Assembly (NCBI GenBank): GCA_013327885.1
Contig: JABUMY010000017.1
Location: forward strand, 62,001-126,000
Origin: Flavisolibacter longurius
GTDB taxonomy: Bacteria; Bacteroidota; Bacteroidia; Chitinophagales; Chitinophagaceae
DNA length: 64,000 bases
Reading direction: 5' to 3'
This document shows, in pieces, positions 31,837 to 41,408 of this stretch. How positions within the stretch are numbered: position 1 is the stretch's first letter; the number at the start of each line of letters is the position of its first letter. The position numbers and the translations under genes were made by a program. The notes below the pieces were generated by a model. That model saw only the letters and a list, made by a program, of their open reading frames with translations, ran no database searches and had not been told where the DNA came from.

Positions 31837-31853
31837 CTAGAGATCTTACAATG

Positions 31854-31954
31854 CTTATCAAGAAAGGTGGAGGGATTAGGCCCCGCGAAACCTTAGCAAC
31901 CGTGGCAATTGCCAAAAGGTGCTACATCCGTCCCGCTGTTGCGGGAGAGATAAG
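31854..31954 (+). ncRNA. SAM-I (S-box) riboswitch aptamer
   Basis: P1 is CTTATC (31854-31859) with GATAAG (31949-31954). Between them are the conserved S-box blocks: GGTGGAGGGA, GGCCCCGCGAAACC, TTAGCAACC and AAGGTGCTACATCC, in canonical order. The 3' P1 strand and following bases (GATAAGTCAGA, 31949-31959) can instead pair with TCTGATTTATC (32001-32011), which includes part of the terminator 5' arm. This gives a textbook SAM-dependent transcription switch: SAM bound, terminator forms; SAM absent, antiterminator forms. It controls the cysH-TSUP operon downstream. Confidence 0.95.
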
Positions 31955-31994
31955 TCAGATGCCGGGTAATTTGTTTTAACACAAAATAATACTG

Positions 31995-32030
31995 AGCACT
32001 TCTGATTTATCGGAAGTGCTTTTTAATTTT
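31995..32030 (+). terminator. Riboswitch expression-platform terminator
   Basis: AGCACTTC (31995-32002) pairs with GAAGTGCT (32013-32020), followed by TTTTAATTTT. The bases between overlap the 11-nt antiterminator partner described for the S-box, so the two structures exclude each other. Confidence 0.9.
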
Positions 32031-32068
32031 AGCGAACGCAAAAAAGGCATCCTGGTAAATTTTGATAA

Positions 32069-32086
32069 GTGATTGAGACCAATCAC
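32069..32086 (+). other. Small hairpin before the poly-Cys leader ORF
   Basis: GTGATTG (32069-32075) and CAATCAC (32080-32086) form a perfect 7-bp stem with loop AGAC, 16 bases before the leader ORF start. It may shape ribosome access to the leader start. Confidence 0.45.
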
Positions 32087-32102
32087 GCATAATTCAAAAG
32101 AA

Positions 32103-32213
32103 ATGAAAAAGACAACAACAAACCAGTTCAAGACAACCGTTAGCAAGCGTTCCAATGCGGCCGCTGCATGTTGTTGCTGTTGTTGTACACCTTCTTGTTG
32201 TTGTACGCTCTAA
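32103..32213 (+). CDS. Poly-cysteine leader peptide (36 aa) of the sulfate/cysteine operon
   Basis: The ORF is ATG at 32103 to TAA at 32211-32213. The peptide begins MKKTTTNQFKTTVSKRSN and ends AAAACCCCCCTPSCCCTL: six consecutive Cys codons (32169-32186), then three more (32196-32204). It has no signal sequence. It lies between the S-box terminator and cysH, 72 bases before the cysH start. Its second Cys run and stop codon are in a hairpin (32200-32231). Such Cys-codon runs are the hallmark of leader peptides that sense charged tRNA-Cys by ribosome stalling; poly-Cys leaders are known in mycobacteria. A metal-binding or stored-sulfur peptide is a less likely alternative. Confidence 0.82.
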   Translation: MKKTTTNQFKTTVSKRSNAAAACCCCCCTPSCCCTL

Positions 32214-32231
32214 GGCAGCCTTCCGTACAAC
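32182..32231 (+). promoter_or_regulatory. Candidate cysteine attenuator with alternative pairings
   Basis: GTTGTACG (32200-32207) pairs perfectly with CGTACAAC (32224-32231), and an inner AAGG/CCTT stem sits around 32212-32222. An earlier copy GTTGTAC (32182-32188) could take the same partner, and ACAACAACA (32112-32120) near the ORF start is complementary to TGTTGTTGT in both Cys runs. The position of a ribosome on the Cys codons would therefore choose between structures. There is no T-run after the hairpin, so control may be translational or Rho-dependent rather than intrinsic termination. Confidence 0.6.
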
Positions 32232-32285
32232 GATAACCTCACTCTCGATTGCTTCTATCCATTTATTGACGTTTAATTTATTGCT

Positions 32286-33014
32286 ATGTCTGCTGACGTT
32301 AAAGACGGTTTCCTGTCTTTGCAGGATAGGATAGCGCAGTTGTCTATACAGGATGCGCTGAATTTGCTGGAAGAATCGTTTCCGGGTGGCCTTACGTTCT
32401 CCACCAGTTTTAGCATGGAAGACCAGGTGATCACCGACCATATTCATACCTCCGGTGTAAAGAGCGCCATTTTTACCCTGGATACCGGCCGGCTTTTCCC
32501 CGAAACCTATTCTACCTGGAGCCGTACCCTGGAGCGTTACCCGGTAACTATTGATGCTTATTACCCCAACACCGAAAAGATTCAGGAGTTTGTCCGCCAC
32601 TACGGGCCCAACTCATTTTACGAATCCGTTGACCGCCGTAAAGAGTGCTGCCACATCCGGAAAGTTGAGCCGCTCAAACGAGCCCTGGCTGGTAAAGCCG
32701 TTTGGATAACAGGGTTGCGGGCTGAGCATTCGCCCAATCGCAACGACATGCAGCTTTTGGAGTGGGACGAAGTGAACCAGGTTATTAAGTACAACCCGCT
32801 TTTGCATTGGTCAACCGACGACGTGTGGGCCTATATCAATAAGCAAAACGTTCCGTACAATTCCCTGCACGACAAAGGTTTTATCAGCATTGGCTGTGCC
32901 CCCTGCACAAGGGCGGTAAGGGCTGGTGAGGATTTTCGTGCCGGCCGCTGGTGGTGGGAAGACCAAAGCAAAAAAGAGTGCGGATTACATGTTCATCAAG
33001 TAGCAACGAATTAA
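32286..33014 (+). CDS. cysH: Adenylyl-sulfate (APS) reductase, CysH family
   Basis: 242 residues. It reduces activated sulfate to sulfite in the cytoplasm. The PAPS/APS reductase fold shows FSTSFSMEDQVITD and DTGRLFPETY. It carries the four Cys of the [4Fe-4S] cluster: KECCHIRK and GCAPCTR, which mark the APS-using type, plus the C-terminal catalytic ECGLH. The operon has no cysC (APS kinase), consistent with direct APS use. First enzyme gene after the S-box and poly-Cys leader; cysD follows after 10 bases. Confidence 0.93.
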   Translation: MSADVKDGFLSLQDRIAQLSIQDALNLLEESFPGGLTFSTSFSMEDQVITDHIHTSGVKSAIFTLDTGRLFPETYSTWSRTLERYPVTIDAYYPNTEKIQEFVRHYGPNSFYESVDRRKECCHIRKVEPLKRALAGKAVWITGLRAEHSPNRNDMQLLEWDEVNQVIKYNPLLHWSTDDVWAYINKQNVPYNSLHDKGFISIGCAPCTRAVRAGEDFRAGRWWWEDQSKKECGLHVHQVATN

Positions 33015-33024
33015 GAATAACGAT

Positions 33025-33930
33025 ATGAGTTTTCAATTAGATTACCTGGACCAGTTAGAAGCAGAAGCGATCTATATCATGCGGGAAGTGGCAGGTCAGT
33101 TTGAAAAGCCGGCCCTGCTTTTTTCGGGAGGAAAGGATAGCATCACGCTGGTACATCTTGCGCTCAAGGCATTCCGCCCCGGCAAGTTCCCGTTCCCGCT
33201 GGTGCACATCGATACCGGTCATAATTTTCCCGAGGCACTCCGGTTCCGCGATGAATTGGCGGCTTCGCTGGGCGAACAACTGATTGTTCGCAACGTAGGC
33301 GATACCATCAAGGCAAAAGGCCTGAAAGAAACGACCGGCAAACTGGCAAGCCGCAATGCGCTGCAGACATTTACCCTTTTGGATACCATTGAAGAATTTG
33401 GCTTTGATGCCTGCATTGGCGGTGCCCGTCGCGATGAAGAAAAAGCAAGGGCCAAGGAAAGAGTGTTCTCCATCCGCGATGAATTTGGCGGCTGGGACCC
33501 AAAGCGGCAGCGTCCCGAACTCTGGAATATTTATAATGGCAAGATCAACAAGGGTGAGAATGTCCGGGTGTTTCCCATTTCTAACTGGACGGAACTGGAT
33601 GTTTGGAATTATATCCGCAGGGAGAAGATAGACCTGCCTTCCATTTATTTTTCACATGAACGCGAAATACTGGAATATGATGGCCAGTTGATCGCCACGT
33701 CGGAATTTATCCGCATAGATGAAGGTGACCAGGTTTCCCGCAGAAAAGTTCGTTACCGCACGGTTGGCGACATGACCTGTACGGCCGCCGTGGAAAGCAC
33801 CGCGTCAACGCTGGATGATATCATTGCAGAAATTACGGCTACGCGTATCAGTGAGAGGGGTGAGACCCGCATTGATGACCGCATTTCCGAAGCCGCCATG
33901 GAAGACAGGAAAGTGAATGGATATTTTTAA
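33025..33930 (+). CDS. cysD: Sulfate adenylyltransferase subunit 2
   Basis: 301 residues. It is the ATP-PPi-type subunit that forms APS from sulfate and ATP with CysN. The PP-loop FSGGKDSITLVHLAL is near residue 30, and HIDTGHNFPEALRFRD and GGARRDEEKARAKERVFS are conserved CysD blocks. It ends with KVNGYF, the usual CysD C-terminus. Separated from cysN by 83 bases that contain a mirrored heptamer array. Confidence 0.96.
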   Translation: MSFQLDYLDQLEAEAIYIMREVAGQFEKPALLFSGGKDSITLVHLALKAFRPGKFPFPLVHIDTGHNFPEALRFRDELAASLGEQLIVRNVGDTIKAKGLKETTGKLASRNALQTFTLLDTIEEFGFDACIGGARRDEEKARAKERVFSIRDEFGGWDPKRQRPELWNIYNGKINKGENVRVFPISNWTELDVWNYIRREKIDLPSIYFSHEREILEYDGQLIATSEFIRIDEGDQVSRRKVRYRTVGDMTCTAAVESTASTLDDIIAEITATRISERGETRIDDRISEAAMEDRKVNGYF

Positions 33931-34013: not shown

Positions 34014-35255
34014 ATGGACCTTTTAAGATTCATAACCGCCGGCAGTGTAGATGATGGAAAAAGCACCCTCATTGGCCGCTTGCTGTACGATAGCAAAAGC
34101 ATTTTAGTTGACCAACTGGAAACACTGAAAAAGCAAAGCAAGAACACCGGCAAAGCAGACATCGACCTGGCGCTCCTTACCGACGGTCTCCGTGCCGAAC
34201 GGGAGCAAGGCATCACCATTGATGTTGCCTACAAGTACTTCTCTACGCCCAAGCGTAAGTTTATCATTGCCGATGCGCCGGGGCATATCCAGTACACCCG
34301 CAACATGATCACCGGTGCGTCCAATGCCGATTGCATTGTGATATTGGTGGATGCCCGTAACGGCGTGGTAGAACAAACGCGGCGCCACTCCATCATTGCT
34401 TCGCTGCTGCGCATTCCCCATGTTGTTATTGCTATCAACAAGATGGATATGGTCGACTATGACAAGGTGGTGTTTGATGCCATTGTTGAACAATACAAGG
34501 CGCTTGCCATTGAGCTTAAGCTGAACGATGTGTATTACATCCCGATGAGTGCACTGAAAGGTGACAATATTACGGCTACATCAGAAGAATTTCCCTGGTA
34601 CAAAGGAGAGGCCTTGCTGCCTTACCTCGAAAGCCTGGAAGTATCGCATGGTTATACCGATTCGCCATCCCGATTTCAGGTGCAGTATGTCATCAGGCCG
34701 CAGGTAGAAGAGCTGCACGATTACCGCGGTTATGCGGGGCGGATCAGCAATGGTTCTTACAAAGTTGGAGATGCCGTTCGTATTCTCCCTTCGGGCCAAA
34801 CAACAACCATCAGTGCCATTGAAGTGAACGGCAACAAAACGGAAGCGGCTTTTGCCGGACAAAGCGTTGTGCTGCACCTGGCAGATGACCTGGATGTAAG
34901 CCGGGGCGACGCCATCGTTAAAATAGGAGAGTTGCCTCGGTTGGAGCAGGAGTTTGACGCCCTGATGTGCTGGATGGATACAAAAGAATTGCAGGAAGGT
35001 TCTAAATACCTTTTGCAGCAAGGCAGTCGGCGTGTAAAGGCAATTGTAAAAGAGATCACGTACAAGCTTGATGTCAACACGCTGGAGCAGCAGGTTTCAC
35101 CATCGGCAGCAGCGTTGAATGATGTCGTGAAAGTTCGCATCAAAACAGCAGAGCCGCTGGCTTATGATGCCTATCAAAAGCTGTCGGCCAATGCAACGGC
35201 AATCCTTATCGACCAGACAAGCAATATGACAGCGGGCGCCCTGCTTTTACAATAG
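34014..35255 (+). CDS. cysN: Sulfate adenylyltransferase subunit 1 (GTPase)
   Basis: 413 residues from the ATG at 34014; an in-frame TTG at 33996 is not needed. GTPase motifs: GSVDDGKSTLIGRLL, DAPGHIQYTRNM, and NKMD. It is an EF-Tu-like protein whose GTP hydrolysis drives APS synthesis by CysD. There is no C-terminal APS kinase domain, in agreement with an APS reductase pathway. The serine acetyltransferase gene starts 5 bases after its stop. Confidence 0.95.
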   Translation: MDLLRFITAGSVDDGKSTLIGRLLYDSKSILVDQLETLKKQSKNTGKADIDLALLTDGLRAEREQGITIDVAYKYFSTPKRKFIIADAPGHIQYTRNMITGASNADCIVILVDARNGVVEQTRRHSIIASLLRIPHVVIAINKMDMVDYDKVVFDAIVEQYKALAIELKLNDVYYIPMSALKGDNITATSEEFPWYKGEALLPYLESLEVSHGYTDSPSRFQVQYVIRPQVEELHDYRGYAGRISNGSYKVGDAVRILPSGQTTTISAIEVNGNKTEAAFAGQSVVLHLADDLDVSRGDAIVKIGELPRLEQEFDALMCWMDTKELQEGSKYLLQQGSRRVKAIVKEITYKLDVNTLEQQVSPSAAALNDVVKVRIKTAEPLAYDAYQKLSANATAILIDQTSNMTAGALLLQ

Positions 35256-35260
35256 AAAAT

Positions 35261-36091
35261 ATGAGCGAAGCGGAATTTCTTTATACGTTAATGCAAAACA
35301 AATCCGGCGAGATCGAACGCTTTCCGGACAGGCTGGCCGCTGGGCATTTTATTACAGAACTTTTCCAGTTCCTCTTTATCAGTTGCCACAAAAGCCTTGA
35401 TTATACCAGCATCGATGCGGAATACAAGCGGTTGAAACAAAGCTTCGACAACCTGCTTTCGCAAACAGGGCTGGCAGAAAAGGAAAGAGCGCAGCAGGCA
35501 GAGAAATTTTTTAAAAGGCTGCCGTTTATTTACAAGGCTCTGCAACATGATGCGCAGGCGATCCTGGAGTTTGACCCGGCAGCGCAAAGCCTTGCCGAAG
35601 TGATCGTGGCGTATCCCGGTTTTTATGCAACGGTGGTGTATCGGTTATCGCACCAATTGCAGGTTCAAGGCGTGAAACTATTGCCGCGACTTTTCAGCGA
35701 GTATGCCCACAGTAAAACAGGCATCGACATCCATCCCGGCGCCACTATCGGCGAAGCCTTTGCCATCGATCATGGAACTGGCATCGTGATTGGCGAAACA
35801 ACGGTCATTGGCAACAATGTGAAAATTTACCAGGGAGTAACGCTGGGTGCATTGAATGTGTCGAAGGAATTTGCCAGCACCAAGCGCCACCCCACCATTG
35901 AAGATGGCGTTGTGATCTATTCCGGTGCAACCATTCTTGGCGGACAAACAACTGTTGGCAAAGGAAGCATTATTGGTGGGAATGTGTGGCTCACCAGCAG
36001 CGTGCCTTCGTATTCGGTGGTATACCACAAAAGCGAAGTAAAGATCAAGGACAAAGACCCGTTTCCCGAACCCATCAACTTTATTATTTAA
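35261..36091 (+). CDS. epsC: Serine O-acetyltransferase (EpsC type)
   Basis: 276 residues. It makes O-acetylserine, the carbon skeleton for cysteine. The C-terminal left-handed beta helix has hexapeptide repeats (HPGATIGEAFAIDHGTG, VIGETTVIGNNVKIYQGVTLGALN) with the catalytic His in IDHGTG. An N-terminal helical half of about 130 residues precedes it, as in EpsC. The C-terminus that usually docks to cysteine synthase ends in NFII. Nine bases separate it from the cysteine synthase gene, so the pair is co-translated. Confidence 0.92.
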   Translation: MSEAEFLYTLMQNKSGEIERFPDRLAAGHFITELFQFLFISCHKSLDYTSIDAEYKRLKQSFDNLLSQTGLAEKERAQQAEKFFKRLPFIYKALQHDAQAILEFDPAAQSLAEVIVAYPGFYATVVYRLSHQLQVQGVKLLPRLFSEYAHSKTGIDIHPGATIGEAFAIDHGTGIVIGETTVIGNNVKIYQGVTLGALNVSKEFASTKRHPTIEDGVVIYSGATILGGQTTVGKGSIIGGNVWLTSSVPSYSVVYHKSEVKIKDKDPFPEPINFII

Positions 36092-36100
36092 AAACAAACG

Positions 36101-37015
36101 ATGAAAGCAAATTCGATACTGGATACGATAGGCAATACGCCACATGTACGCTTGAATAAATTATTTCCACCCGACTATGAAGTGTGGATAAAACTGGAGC
36201 GAAGCAATCCCGGCGCCAGCATCAAAGATCGCATAGCCCTGGCAATGATCGAAGATGCCGAAGCAAAAGGCATCCTGCAAAAAGACAGTGTGATTATCGA
36301 GCCAACTTCCGGAAACACCGGTATTGGTTTGGCCCTGGTGGCAGCTGTAAAAGGTTACAAGCTAATTCTCGTGATGCCGGAAAGCATGTCGGTTGAACGG
36401 CGCCGGCTGATGTCGATATATGGAGCTGAGTTTGTGCTGACGCCCCGCGAAAAAGGAATGAAAGGCGCCATTGAAAAAGCACAGGAGCTGGCAAAAGAAA
36501 CACCTAATGCCTGGATCCCGCAGCAGTTCGACAATCCTTCGAATACAGAGATTCACCGCACGACAACAGCACAGGAGATCATCAATGATTTTAAGGACGG
36601 ACTGGATTATGTGATAACAGGTGTGGGAACCGGTGGCCACATCACCGCCATCGCCGAAGTGGTGAAAGATGCCATTCCCGGGTTAAAAGTCCTTGCGGTA
36701 GAACCCGAGCTCTCGCCTGTGCTGAGTGGCGGTTCACCCTCACCGCACCCGTTGCAGGGACTGGGCGCTGGCTTTGTGCCATCGATCTTAAATAAAGATG
36801 CACTGGATGGTGTGGTAACGGTAAGCAAAGAAGAAGCGTTTCTCTACACGCAGCGACTGGCAAAAGAAGAAGGCATTCTTGCCGGCATCTCCACCGGTGC
36901 AGCGCTTGCGGCTGTGGCAAAAAAGCTGGTTGACATTCCAAAAGGCGCAAAGATATTAACCTACAACTACGACACGGGCGAACGCTATTTGTCAATCGAA
37001 GGACTGTTTCAATAA
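36101..37015 (+). CDS. cysK: Cysteine synthase A (O-acetylserine sulfhydrylase)
   Basis: 304 residues. It is a PLP enzyme forming cysteine from O-acetylserine and sulfide. The PLP Lys is in [11 protein letters not shown] near residue 43; the substrate loop is [13 protein letters not shown]; the phosphate loop is TGVGTGGHI. It ends with [15 protein letters not shown], typical of CysK. It lies between epsC and SUMT within the operon. CysM is the closest alternative, but the spacing to the SAT gene favours CysK. Confidence 0.94.
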
Positions 37016-37021
37016 ACGTAC

Positions 37022-37858
37022 ATGACAACGCAATTTCAAAAGGGAAAAGTGATACTGGTTGGTGCCGGCACCGGCGATCCGGAGCTGTTAACGGTGAAGG
37101 GTATGCGCTACCTGCAACAAGCTGATGTGATTCTCACGGACAGGCTGGTGAGCCCTGCCATTCTTGAAAACTTTGCTTCGCCGAATGCCCGTGTTATCTA
37201 CGTGGGCAAACAGTGCCGTAAAGGTGCTTCCACGCCGCAGGCGACTATCAACGAATTGATGGTGTTGTATGCCCAGGATAACAAACGGGTAGTGCGATTG
37301 AAGGGCGGTGATGTTTCTGTTTTCTCTAACATTTTAGACGAATTGCAAACCCTTGTTGAAAACGGGATTCCCTACGAAATTGTGCCTGGTATTACCGCTG
37401 CTTTGGGTGCCGCCGCTTATGCAGGCATGCCGCTCACAGCCCGTGGCTATGCAACGGCTGTTCGCTTATTGACGGCCTATAAATCCGACGTGGTGTCGGA
37501 AAGTTATTGGCAGGAACTGGCCCAGACGGATGATACGCTTGTTTTTTACATGTCGTCGGAGACCGTTGCACATGTGGTGAAGCAATTGACCAAATATGGG
37601 ATTGCTGCTGAAAAACAACTGGCCATTGTTGAACAGGCAACAACGCCTTACCAGCAAGTGTATACTACTTCGCTTTACCGGTTTGCCGAAACCCTGGGCA
37701 ACCGAACGTTCCTGTCGCCTTCGCTGGTGGTGATTGGAAAAGTAGTGGACCTGCATGCGCAGTTTCAATGGCTGCCAAAAACCAGCCAGGCCGCAGCATA
37801 TTTTTCTTCCGAAACAACGGTGGTATCTGAAAACGAACAATTAGCCTTAACAGCATAA
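37022..37858 (+). CDS. cobA: Uroporphyrinogen-III C-methyltransferase (SUMT)
   Basis: 278 residues. It adds two SAM methyl groups to uroporphyrinogen III, giving precorrin-2 for siroheme. Motifs are VILVGAGTGDPELLTVKGM, VRLKGGDVSVFS, and VPGITAALGAAAYAGMPLT. It corresponds to the C-terminal half of E. coli CysG as a stand-alone protein. The N-terminal (dehydrogenase/ferrochelatase) half of CysG is encoded separately at 41408 as a fusion. Siroheme is required by CysI in the same operon. Confidence 0.94.
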   Translation: MTTQFQKGKVILVGAGTGDPELLTVKGMRYLQQADVILTDRLVSPAILENFASPNARVIYVGKQCRKGASTPQATINELMVLYAQDNKRVVRLKGGDVSVFSNILDELQTLVENGIPYEIVPGITAALGAAAYAGMPLTARGYATAVRLLTAYKSDVVSESYWQELAQTDDTLVFYMSSETVAHVVKQLTKYGIAAEKQLAIVEQATTPYQQVYTTSLYRFAETLGNRTFLSPSLVVIGKVVDLHAQFQWLPKTSQAAAYFSSETTVVSENEQLALTA

Positions 37859-37867
37859 ACGAACAAC

Positions 37868-39574
37868 ATGATTGCACAAGCAAAAATCAAAATCATACAG
37901 GAGATGGTTGTCGACCTCACTAAAGAGGAGATCATCTGGCTGAGCGGCTACCTGTCCGGCATTGCTGGTGCCGATACAAAACTGATCCCCGGTGAAGCCA
38001 CGCAGGGGACAGCCGCCGCTGTTCCTTCGGTACAAAAGATCACCATCGCCTATGGCACGGAAACAGGCAATGCAAAAAAGCTCGCTTCCAATTTTGCGGC
38101 GAAGGCAAAGAAAAAAGGCATTCAACCCAAATTGGTAAGCCTGGAGCAATACAAGCTGACGGACTTGCCAAAAGAAGAATGGTTCTTTACCATTATCAGC
38201 ACACAAGGTGATGGCGAACCCCCGGCCGGCGCCAAAAAATTCTATGATTTTGTGCACCAGGATTCGGTGACACTTTCCAAATTGAATTATGGCGTGCTGG
38301 CCCTTGGCGATACCGCTTATCCTTTGTTTTGCAAGGCGGGAGAAGATGTGGACAACCAGTTGCAAAAGCTGGGTGGCAAACGCATTGTTCCGCTGCAAAA
38401 ACTGGATACGGATTACGAAGAAGAAGCAGAACAGTGGATTGCTAACCTCCTGCAATCGCTTACGGCTCCTTCTGCAGCCGCCGCTCCTGCAGTTGTTGTA
38501 CCGGCAAAAAAAACCGGAAAAAAGACATACACGGGAACCATTCAAACAAAGATCAACCTCAACGGACGCGGGTCGCAAAAAGAAACCTATCACATCGAGA
38601 TCGCTGCGGAAGATGTCCAGTTTGAACCTGGTGATGCGGTTGGCATTGTTCCCCGCAACAAGCCGGAACTGGTGCAGAAAATTATTTCCCTAAGTGGCCT
38701 GACAGAAGAAGCCCTTGTTCCTTACCGCAATGAAACGGCACCACTCGGCAGCCTGTTTGCTCAAAAGCTGTCGTTGGTAAATCTTTCAGAGAACACGGTA
38801 AAAAAATATGCGGCCATCGTTAAGCAGGAGATACCCGCTACGCGGATGGATTTTTCCGATCTTTTGCGCATTTATCCTGTCAGTAACAGCGAGCAGTTTT
38901 TAGAGGCCATCCAGGTACTGGATCCCATTGCACCGCGGTTGTATTCCATTGCTTCTTCACCCGAAGCGCATGGCAGCGAAGTGCACATTACGCTGGGCAT
39001 GCACCGCTATTGCGTAAACGATTCCCTGCGTGATGGTCTTTGTTCTTACTACCTATCGCAAATGAAAGAAGGCGAAGAAATTGATTTTTACATACACAAG
39101 AATCACCTGTTCAAATTGCCGGCAGAGGATAAAGACGTGATCATGGTAGGACCGGGAACCGGCATTGCACCGTTCCGCTCTTTTGTGGCGCATCGCGATG
39201 CCACCGGCGCTTCTGGTCGCAACTGGCTCTTTTTCGGCGACCAGCATTTCACCACCGATTTTCTTTACCAAACAGAATGGCAAAGCTGGATTGAGACCGG
39301 TGTGCTGACGAAAATGAATGTTGCGTTTAGTCGCGACCAGGAAGAAAAGCTTTATGTGCAACACAAGTTGTGGCAACACCGGCAGGAGCTTGTTCAGTGG
39401 CTCGATGATGGCGCCAGCTTTTACATCTGTGGTGCCAAGAATCCAATGAGCGTGGATGTAGAAAATATACTGGTAAAGATCATCAGCGAGCAGAAGGGAT
39501 TCACGGAGGAAGCGTCCATCGAATACCTGGATGCACTGAAAGAAGAAGGTCGGTACCTGAAAGATGTTTATTAA
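37868..39574 (+). CDS. cysJ: Sulfite reductase flavoprotein subunit
   Basis: 568 residues. It passes electrons from NADPH through FAD and FMN to CysI. The flavodoxin domain has ITIAYGTETGNAKKLA near residues 58-75 and STQGDGEPPAGAKKF. A Pro/Ala-rich linker follows (PSAAAAPAVVVPA), then the FAD domain (PRLYSIASSPEAHGSEV) and the NADPH domain (GPGTGIAPFRSFV and YICGAKNPMSVDV). It ends with the aromatic EEGRYLKDVY typical of this family. The first 50 residues are an extra helical region as in other Bacteroidota CysJ. Confidence 0.94.
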   Translation: MIAQAKIKIIQEMVVDLTKEEIIWLSGYLSGIAGADTKLIPGEATQGTAAAVPSVQKITIAYGTETGNAKKLASNFAAKAKKKGIQPKLVSLEQYKLTDLPKEEWFFTIISTQGDGEPPAGAKKFYDFVHQDSVTLSKLNYGVLALGDTAYPLFCKAGEDVDNQLQKLGGKRIVPLQKLDTDYEEEAEQWIANLLQSLTAPSAAAAPAVVVPAKKTGKKTYTGTIQTKINLNGRGSQKETYHIEIAAEDVQFEPGDAVGIVPRNKPELVQKIISLSGLTEEALVPYRNETAPLGSLFAQKLSLVNLSENTVKKYAAIVKQEIPATRMDFSDLLRIYPVSNSEQFLEAIQVLDPIAPRLYSIASSPEAHGSEVHITLGMHRYCVNDSLRDGLCSYYLSQMKEGEEIDFYIHKNHLFKLPAEDKDVIMVGPGTGIAPFRSFVAHRDATGASGRNWLFFGDQHFTTDFLYQTEWQSWIETGVLTKMNVAFSRDQEEKLYVQHKLWQHRQELVQWLDDGASFYICGAKNPMSVDVENILVKIISEQKGFTEEASIEYLDALKEEGRYLKDVY

Positions 39575-39737: not shown

Positions 39738-41408
39738 ATGGCGGAACAAAAGAATATATCAGCAGTTGAAAAAATAAAATTAGCCAGTGATGCCTTGCGG
39801 GGAACACTGAAAGACAGCTTGCAGGACGAACTTACGGGTGCCGTGCGGGAAATGGATCATGCCCTTGTGAAGTTTCATGGTATGTATGAGCAGGATGACC
39901 GCGACCTGCGGGAAGAACGTGCTGCGCAAAAACTGGACAAGCTTTATTCCTTTATGATTCGATTGCGTATTCCCGGTGGATTAATCACACCGGAGCAATG
40001 GATCATGGCGCACCACGTGGCGGGAAATTATACAACCGGTGTCATTAAAATTACCACGCGGCAAACCATCCAATTACATGGGATTCTTAAGCGGCACATC
40101 AAACCCACCTTGCAGGATTTTAATACAGTTGGACTGGATTCCATCGCTGCTTGCGGTGACGTCAACCGCAATGTGATCGCCAGCAGTCATCCTTCCATTT
40201 CGCCCCTGCATGCACACATTCACGACTACGCCAAAAAGATCAGCGAAGCCCTGTTGCCCAAAACAAGGGCGTTTTACGAAGTGTGGCTGGATGAACAACC
40301 GCTGACCGATAAAAAAGCAGAGGAAGATCCGCTGTATCAGAAACATTACCTGCCCCGGAAATTTAAAGTGGCTATTGCCATTCCGCCCAACAACGATGTG
40401 GATGTGTTTGCAAACGATGTTGCCATCATTGCCGTTATTGAAGCCGGCAAGCTGCTTGGTTTTAACATTGGTATCGGCGGCGGATTGGGTGCTACACATG
40501 GCAACCCGGCTACCTACCCGCGGCTGGCAAGCATCATTGGATTTGTGCCCGAAGAAAAATTGATTGAAACCGTTTACCAGATCGCCGCCGTGCAACGGGA
40601 TAATGGCAACCGTAGCGACCGCAAGTTATCGCGGTTGAAATATACTGTCGATAACATGGGGCTGGATGTATTCAAAGCTGAATTGGAAAAGCGTCTCGGC
40701 TTTCAGCTTGAACCGGAAAAGCCTTATGTTTTTACAGAACGCAGAGACCATTTTGGATGGGAACAAAGTTCGGATGGTGCCTGGCATTATACCATCTTCG
40801 TTGAGAATGGCAGGGTTACGGATGAAGCAAACCTTCCGTTAAAAACAGCGCTTTTAAAGATCGCAGAAACGGGCAAGGCAAACTTCCGGTTCACCACCAA
40901 TCAAAACCTTACCCTCGGTGACATTGCAGAAGGCGACAAAGCCGTCGTTGAAGCCATATTGAACAGCTATAACGTTATCGATCACACGGAAAGGGCAGGA
41001 GGTATGCGCCGGAATGCTGTTGCTTGTGTGGCGTTTAATACCTGTCCGCTTGCCCTGGCTGAAGCGCAGCGTTACCTGCCAACGCTTATCTCCAAAATAG
41101 AACCGCTGCTTTCAAAACACGGCTTGCAGGAGGAAGAGATCAGCATACGCATGACGGGTTGTCCAAACGGTTGCGGACGATCCACGCTGGCCGAAATCGG
41201 CTTTATCGGAACGGCTTATGGGCGGTATAATTTACAGCTCGGTGGCGACAGGTTGGGGCACCGGCTCAATGCCAAATACAAGGATAACGTGGATGAAGCA
41301 ACGATCCTTTCGGAACTGGACCAGTTGTTTGCTTTTTACAGCAAAGAGCGCAGCAGGGGCGAAAGTTTTGGTGATTTTGTTGTTCGAAAAGAACTGGTGA
41401 AAGCCTAA
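39738..41408 (+). CDS. cysI: Assimilatory sulfite reductase hemoprotein subunit
   Basis: 556 residues. It reduces sulfite to sulfide with siroheme and a [4Fe-4S] cluster. The cluster and siroheme Cys are in CVAFNTCPLALAEAQ and MTGCPNGCGRSTLAEIGFIG; the GRYNLQLGG block matches CysI closely. Two repeats of the sulfite/nitrite reductase ferredoxin-like domain are present. The stop codon overlaps the next ATG by one base (TAATG), so translation is coupled. Confidence 0.95.
   Translation: MAEQKNISAVEKIKLASDALRGTLKDSLQDELTGAVREMDHALVKFHGMYEQDDRDLREERAAQKLDKLYSFMIRLRIPGGLITPEQWIMAHHVAGNYTTGVIKITTRQTIQLHGILKRHIKPTLQDFNTVGLDSIAACGDVNRNVIASSHPSISPLHAHIHDYAKKISEALLPKTRAFYEVWLDEQPLTDKKAEEDPLYQKHYLPRKFKVAIAIPPNNDVDVFANDVAIIAVIEAGKLLGFNIGIGGGLGATHGNPATYPRLASIIGFVPEEKLIETVYQIAAVQRDNGNRSDRKLSRLKYTVDNMGLDVFKAELEKRLGFQLEPEKPYVFTERRDHFGWEQSSDGAWHYTIFVENGRVTDEANLPLKTALLKIAETGKANFRFTTNQNLTLGDIAEGDKAVVEAILNSYNVIDHTERAGGMRRNAVACVAFNTCPLALAEAQRYLPTLISKIEPLLSKHGLQEEEISIRMTGCPNGCGRSTLAEIGFIGTAYGRYNLQLGGDRLGHRLNAKYKDNVDEATILSELDQLFAFYSKERSRGESFGDFVVRKELVKA

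Follow-up and report, generated by a model that had tools for sequence, protein, structure and literature searches.

Before cys operons of Actinobacteria, Cys leaders without terminators have been predicted, with Rho suggested to be involved (Seliverstov 2005, PMC1262725, accessible text). In mycobacteria, leaderless short ORFs with poly-Cys runs (Canestrari 2020) are reported to be cysteine-responsive, as related in the accessible parts of PMC9031893, PMC9094748 and PMC13236596. Cys codons in the short ORF of the uORFC-8-2 motif, found before cysS in Rhodobacterales, have been proposed to serve a ribosome-mediated attenuator that includes a terminator (PMC8632094, accessible text). For Bacteroidota, the available portions of the literature tabulate the Bacteroid-trp RNA (RF01692) as a likely cis-regulatory motif (PMC2864571), give clues to leader peptides before amino acid operons of a flavobacterium, with cysteine not among them in the accessible text (PMC9723704), and note short ORFs in long 5′ UTRs of B. 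thetaiotaomicron (PMC7366714). No Cys leader was found in the accessible text of PMC2864571 and PMC4833913. A sequence-only reading of the DNA analyzed here had called poly-Cys leaders known from mycobacteria and was aware of no description of them in Bacteroidota or in tandem with an S-box. The precedents bear out the first half, and our literature search, which covered titles and the openings of abstracts, returned no description of a Cys leader in Bacteroidota; subscription papers lay mostly outside its coverage, and absence from print is not proven.

The leader considered here lies in a stretch of 64,000 nucleotides, which we call the window, from a Flavisolibacter genome of 5.75 Mb in 52 contigs (G000). 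As far as the available sources describe the Actinobacterial and mycobacterial ORFs, the window resembles them in having a short ORF with contiguous Cys codons near its stop, placed before cysteine genes and with no evident terminator. It differs from them in belonging to another phylum and in having a hairpin at the stop codon; moreover, the Bacteroidota leaders serve several target operons, one type of which carries intrinsic terminators. With uORFC-8-2, as described in its accessible text, the window shares the use of Cys codons in a short ORF as the sensor of an attenuator, but that motif has two conserved Cys codons, a cysS target and an alphaproteobacterial host, whereas the window leader contains nine Cys codons, is not followed by a terminator and precedes a biosynthetic operon. 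The Bacteroid-trp RNA, which is read as a Trp leader, is likewise a cis-regulatory leader of an amino acid operon in the same phylum, to judge from the portion of its description available, with Trp there in place of Cys. A classical trp-type attenuator also has a leader peptide with regulatory codons, but the window lacks the intrinsic terminator that would follow such a leader, and its cysM-like relatives have one. Based upon these comparisons, and on those that follow, we put the probability that the window ORF does the sensing in a ribosome-mediated attenuator for cysteine at roughly 85%.

The leader and its surroundings in the window

The features of the locus, all on the plus strand, are as follows.

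31852–31956, SAM riboswitch aptamer (S-box, RF00162), 81.2 bits, E 1.5e-17, above the gathering score
31994–32021, intrinsic terminator of the S-box, a 12-pair stem followed by TTTAATTTT
32069–32086, 7-bp hairpin GTGATTG-AGAC-CAATCAC, downstream of the S-box terminator and upstream of the leader, z −3.9 (32060–32102)
32103–32213, leader ORF, 36 codons plus TAA, predicted peptide MKKTTTNQFKTTVSKRSNAAAACCCCCCTPSCCCTL
32112–32120, ACAACAACA (Thr4–6 of the leader), complementary to the Cys runs
32169–32186, first Cys run, six codons TGT TGT TGC TGT TGT TGT
32196–32204, second Cys run, three codons
32195–32236, stop-codon hairpin, a 13-pair stem of 32195–32207 with 32224–32236, G-U pairs included
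32214–32285, C-rich, G-poor stretch from the leader stop to cysH, a candidate Rho-loading region
32242–32270, CTCTCGATTGCTTCTATCCATTTATTGAC, between the leader stop and cysH
32286–33014, cysH, phosphoadenylyl/adenylyl-sulfate reductase
33025–33930, cysD
34014–35255, cysN
35261–36091, cysE-like serine O-acetyltransferase (TIGR01172 below its cut-off)
36101–37015, cysK, cysteine synthase A
37022–37858, uroporphyrinogen-III C-methyltransferase (cobA/cysG)
37868–39574, cysJ-like sulfite reductase flavoprotein (TIGR01931 below its cut-off)
39738–41408, cysI, sulfite reductase hemoprotein (NF010029 above, TIGR02041 just below its cut-off)

The window letters bear out the 36-codon ORF with six and then three Cys codons between an S-box and cysH, as first read from the sequence. 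On its 5′ side stand the S-box and a terminator whose region (31990–32025) folds with a z of −7.0 relative to shuffles; on its 3′ side stands cysHDNEK-cobA-cysJI, apparently a complete pathway from sulfate to cysteine. A leaderless start, as in the mycobacterial ORFs, is argued against because the S-box and its terminator lie 82–251 nt upstream of the leader ATG, so that the window leader probably begins inside a 5′ UTR after the S-box. The leader itself has no match in Rfam at the gathering score. The CysH encoded in the window shares 89% identity with the F. longurius protein and 81% with its counterpart in F. nicotianae.

Below, genus counts refer to Flavisolibacter and family counts to Chitinophagaceae. 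CysH was found in 12 of 18 genus genomes, six of which have the leader (G000, G154, G150, G004, G104 and G159), each with an S-box upstream (6/6); in the other six, CysH is more distant (53–56% identity) and has no leader. Together with two leaders at tonB loci, these six cysH leaders form the Flavisolibacter sample. Loss of the ORF, frameshifts or non-Cys codons in close relatives had been named as signs against a Cys-codon leader. The close relatives keep the ORF: the cysH leaders have 33–36 codons and differ in length only in frame. When six leaders (four cysH, two tonB) are compared in 15 pairs, the third codon position is the most variable one in 13 of them, and Cys is exchanged for non-Cys at 0–4 positions per pair. 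The element ACAACAACA is unchanged in G154, G150, G004 and the tonB paralogue of G000. The GTGATTG/CAATCAC hairpin can be read in five of the six leader-bearing genomes (also G154, G150, G104 and G159, not G004), and could alternatively pair with a downstream CGATTGC element. In the interval from leader stop to cysH, three species (G000, G154 and G150) share CTCTCGATTGCTTCTATCCATTTATTGAC almost letter for letter, and its core CGATTGCTTC is found after both tonB leaders as well.

The paralogous poly-Cys leader in the window genome, MKKTTTKFNRTKDRKPVNFLASCCCCCSSSSCCCTV followed by a stop (L021:10033–10191, equal to G000:C1:207032–207190, minus strand), is 75% identical to the window leader over 159 nt and has the same length and geometry. 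It ends 349 nt before a gene for a TonB-dependent receptor; behind that gene lies one for a YeiH-type transporter (PF03601; TIGR00698 scores below its cut-off), and a divergent Rrf2 gene stands alongside. This arrangement suggests a cysteine-linked uptake locus. The receptor was found in 3 of 18 genus genomes and has the leader in two of the three. Neither of the two tonB loci scanned (L258 and L259) gave an S-box match; in the window the upstream gate is a SAM-I riboswitch, from which the poly-Cys leader further downstream is distinct. No poly-Cys leader precedes the metY homologue of the window genome itself (L247, G000:C49:283434–284720), though one is present at half of the family metY loci read. 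A DNA search with the leader returned many weak chance matches; beyond the genome's own paralogue, relevant loci were recognized, among the 30 loci listed, only in G004, G002, G029, G036 and G043.

Cys leaders before sulfur genes in the family and the class

Leaders were counted under a strict criterion, namely at least four Cys in the last 14 codons, a Cys pair and an in-frame upstream ATG, within 300 nt; looser leaders, such as L090 and L091, fall outside these counts. CysH was found in 72 of 117 family genomes, and the 70 upstream regions taken first contain 29 strict Cys-tail leaders, leaving 41 loci without one; the two remaining loci have no leader. For comparison, 100 dinucleotide shuffles of the 70 regions gave a mean of 0.16 and a maximum of 2, the reverse strand gave 1/70, and the same criterion applied to other residues gave 12 for Leu and 0–2 for the rest. 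Among named genomes outside Flavisolibacter, drawn from the best 80 of 294 relatives, 0 of 78 have a leader. Over the class, CysH was detected in 59 of the 295 genomes, and 55 of these belong to other families. There the leader is present in 5 of the 54 loci read, all in one genus of family f5 (5/6 of its genomes), and it is also present at the 55th locus (G365, family f3). Two loci, L317 (28 nt) and L302 (80 nt), have too little upstream sequence to enter the leader count.

The leaders extend to other sulfur genes. Homologues of metY were found in 26 of 60 family genomes, with a leader in 13 of 26 (shuffle maximum 1), and elsewhere in the class 29 of 39 places were read, with a leader in 11 (shuffle maximum 1). 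The metY leaders end in a hairpin round the stop, often GTATGCC-loop-GGCATAC; among the 14 leaders with at least three Cys, the mean z is −1.85, six reach p ≤ 0.05, and the combined p is 1.5e-6. A cysM-like/JAMM operon occurs in 10 of 117 family genomes, one copy being cut by a contig end, and all nine others have a leader, counted here with a 25-codon window. Outside the family the operon occurs in 9 of 247 genomes, with leader and terminator in three of the nine; the remaining six loci lie, by eye, inside or close behind another gene. In the 12 leader-bearing cysM-like loci the leader is followed by an intrinsic terminator hairpin, whose stem is immediately adjoined by a T-run in 11; in L266 the T-run lies about 9 nt further from the stem. 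A stretch within or behind the leader, frequently GGTGG, could pair with the 5′ arm of the terminator, as an antiterminator would, with a combined p of 3e-4 and p < 0.05 singly in only 3 of 12.

It might be asked whether the window ORF is simply a TGY repeat that arose by chance and has no function. Such repeats are common, since the window genome holds 21 matches to five TGY codons, most of which are not leaders. Yet the shuffles and reverse strand (cysH, metY), the paralogue and the recurrence before sulfur genes all contradict this explanation, and we regard its likelihood as negligible. Alternatively, the function could lie in the leader peptide itself, which might for instance sense metals or thiols, and not in its codons. 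Cys-rich peptides do bind metals in general, and the MKKTT start is preserved in close relatives and in both tonB leaders. However, the family leaders vary in length (mostly 13–36 codons) and in sequence, except for the Cys runs near the stop, the genes they target belong to cysteine and methionine sulfur metabolism, and the layout of the cysM-like loci is that of a terminator. A working peptide is thus highly improbable. Comparison among genomes establishes the ORF, its Cys runs, their place before cysteine genes, the paralogue and the relatives with classical terminators, and by the same comparison Cys-codon attenuation in Bacteroidota is well supported.

A six-Cys pattern is found in 33 of 295 genomes over the class, the window genome and family genomes included. 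Most of its matches proved to be either TGT repeats that equaled the reversed control or coding repeats read in antisense, and among ten loci inspected only that of G365 is clearly a leader. Two loci have a short ORF with no clear cysteine gene right behind it, MFSYNYCCCCCC before the stop in L203 (G006:C55:287606) and an ORF ending in HSTDCCCCCCSDNSD in L284 (G450:C1:1370619). Upstream of the family genes, a GTCTAC-N-GTAG-like dyad is present at cysH (12/70), metY (4/26) and cysM-like (4/9) loci, with an average of at most 0.07 in 30 shuffles. The dyad lies near promoter-like TAnnTTTG boxes. It is possible that the dyad is an Rrf2-type operator and forms a further layer of control.

Possible routes from sensor to output

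We infer that ribosomes would stall at the Cys codons when tRNA-Cys is uncharged, as follows from established attenuation. With ample charged tRNA-Cys, ribosomes would translate past the Cys codons and come off the RNA at the stop; the hairpin there would then close, the C-rich RNA before cysH would be exposed and the operon would be turned down. With scarce charged tRNA-Cys, stalled ribosomes would keep the 5′ arm of the hairpin unpaired and cover the first part of the C-rich stretch, and the cysteine operon would be made. In Flavisolibacter, the Cys attenuator would form a second gate, after the SAM-sensing terminator of the S-box.

A Cys-codon leader before a sulfate assimilation operon and in tandem with an S-box, as proposed by the sequence-only reading, agrees with the counts across the family and the genus, but the part of the hairpin as the switch is not established by them. 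In the window this hairpin is strong (−15.9 kcal/mol, z −4.1, equaled by none of 200 shuffles), and the perfect 8-bp stem first described (32200–32207 with 32224–32231) is present within the 13-pair stem, although the stop codon (32211–32213) lies in the loop and a small inner stem and not in the 8-bp stem itself. However, a hairpin of this kind is not general at family cysH leaders, where 5 of 32 reach p ≤ 0.05 (median z about 0, combined p 0.015), and in four other cysH leaders of the genus p is 0.83 (G004), 0.69 (G159), 0.075 (G150) and 0.035 (G154), the two tonB leaders lying outside the scored region. The whole stretch 32103–32285 folds unremarkably (z −0.88, 34 of 200 shuffles as good). 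Competing pairings had also been suggested. The earlier GTTGTAC copy (32182–32188) and the ACA-rich ACAACAACA are both there, but the pairing of the latter with the Cys runs is no better than composition predicts (p 0.43), and pairing of the Cys run with upstream codons (1 of 32 cysH leaders) does not rise above shuffles.

Such a strong hairpin, in a locus whose cysM-like relatives do carry intrinsic terminators, could be taken for an intrinsic terminator itself, which would make the window a trp-type attenuator. Yet no U-tract or T-run follows it, and the only terminator-like sites between 31700 and 32320 are that of the S-box and a weak 6-pair site inside the leader; we therefore consider this explanation very unlikely.

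The composition of the RNA after the leader points elsewhere. After the stop of cysH leaders (n = 30, two of 32 having been dropped for lying 30 nt or less before the assumed gene start) C makes up 25% and G 11%. The corresponding values are 19% and 19% at the 41 leader-less family loci (p 3e-8), some of whose regions may be coding, and 13% and 22% at the 78 named loci (p 1e-14). A paired test against the 50 nt before the leader gives p 2e-6 (n = 30), and comparison with 31 5′ regions of the same genome (window plus L021) gives p 5e-4, although the C–G excess of the window itself is equaled or exceeded by 3 of these 31. At metY leaders the contrast is weaker (p 0.025). As a property of the set, a C-rich, G-poor region after the leader stop is shared with Rho-dependent (tna-like) attenuators; its resemblance to a Rho-loading site hints at such a mechanism, composition being no proof, and the C-richness may also serve to keep a ribosome-binding region unstructured. 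For the OFF step at cysH-type leaders, which we infer, Rho-dependent termination is our tentative preference over blocked cysH translation, at somewhat below an even chance. That the OFF state in the window arises by neither of these two routes is rather doubtful.

Blocked translation keeps the same sensor and changes the output: translation of the leader would govern access of ribosomes to the cysH start through RNA pairing, with transcription unaffected. In five family loci (L064, L071, L075, L078 and L079) the leader start pairs with RNA just before cysH, four of them at p < 0.02, and the arms of this long-range stem co-vary (CGTTG/CAACG versus CATTG/CAATG). At two loci of family f5 (L327 and L328), inspection by eye shows the Cys run to be complementary to AACAGCAAC, which immediately precedes the ATG of cysH. 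Mycobacterial poly-Cys ORFs, for their part, are described in the accessible text of PMC9031893 as controlling translation of downstream genes. Against this, pairing of the Cys tail with the gene start reaches p ≤ 0.05 in only 3 of 32 family leaders, not above shuffles, with p 0.85 in the window, and among the f5 leaders tested in one of four, at p 0.05 (L331, nearly a copy of L330, was excluded, and L334 had a misplaced gene start). Translational attenuation is thus possible, if somewhat unlikely.

Returning to the cysteine attenuator as a whole, we consider it fairly probable that a leader regulon sensing Cys-tRNA (cysH, metY, cysM-like/JAMM and the TonB/YeiH-type locus) is widespread in one GTDB class of Bacteroidota. 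One sensor, the Cys-run ORF, would there feed at least three outputs: an intrinsic terminator, a stop-codon hairpin with C-rich RNA, and a long-range stem to the gene start. In Flavisolibacter, placed in series behind the SAM riboswitch, it would form a two-input gate for the whole sulfate-to-cysteine operon.

If this is true, leader-peptide attenuation by cysteine extends to a phylum for which our literature search found no description, and these bacteria would appear to sense cysteine as charged tRNA. It would also flag short ORFs that gene annotation may easily overlook. Moreover, the series arrangement with a SAM riboswitch, and the use of one sensor with several outputs, would open attenuator evolution to direct tests in cultured soil bacteria.
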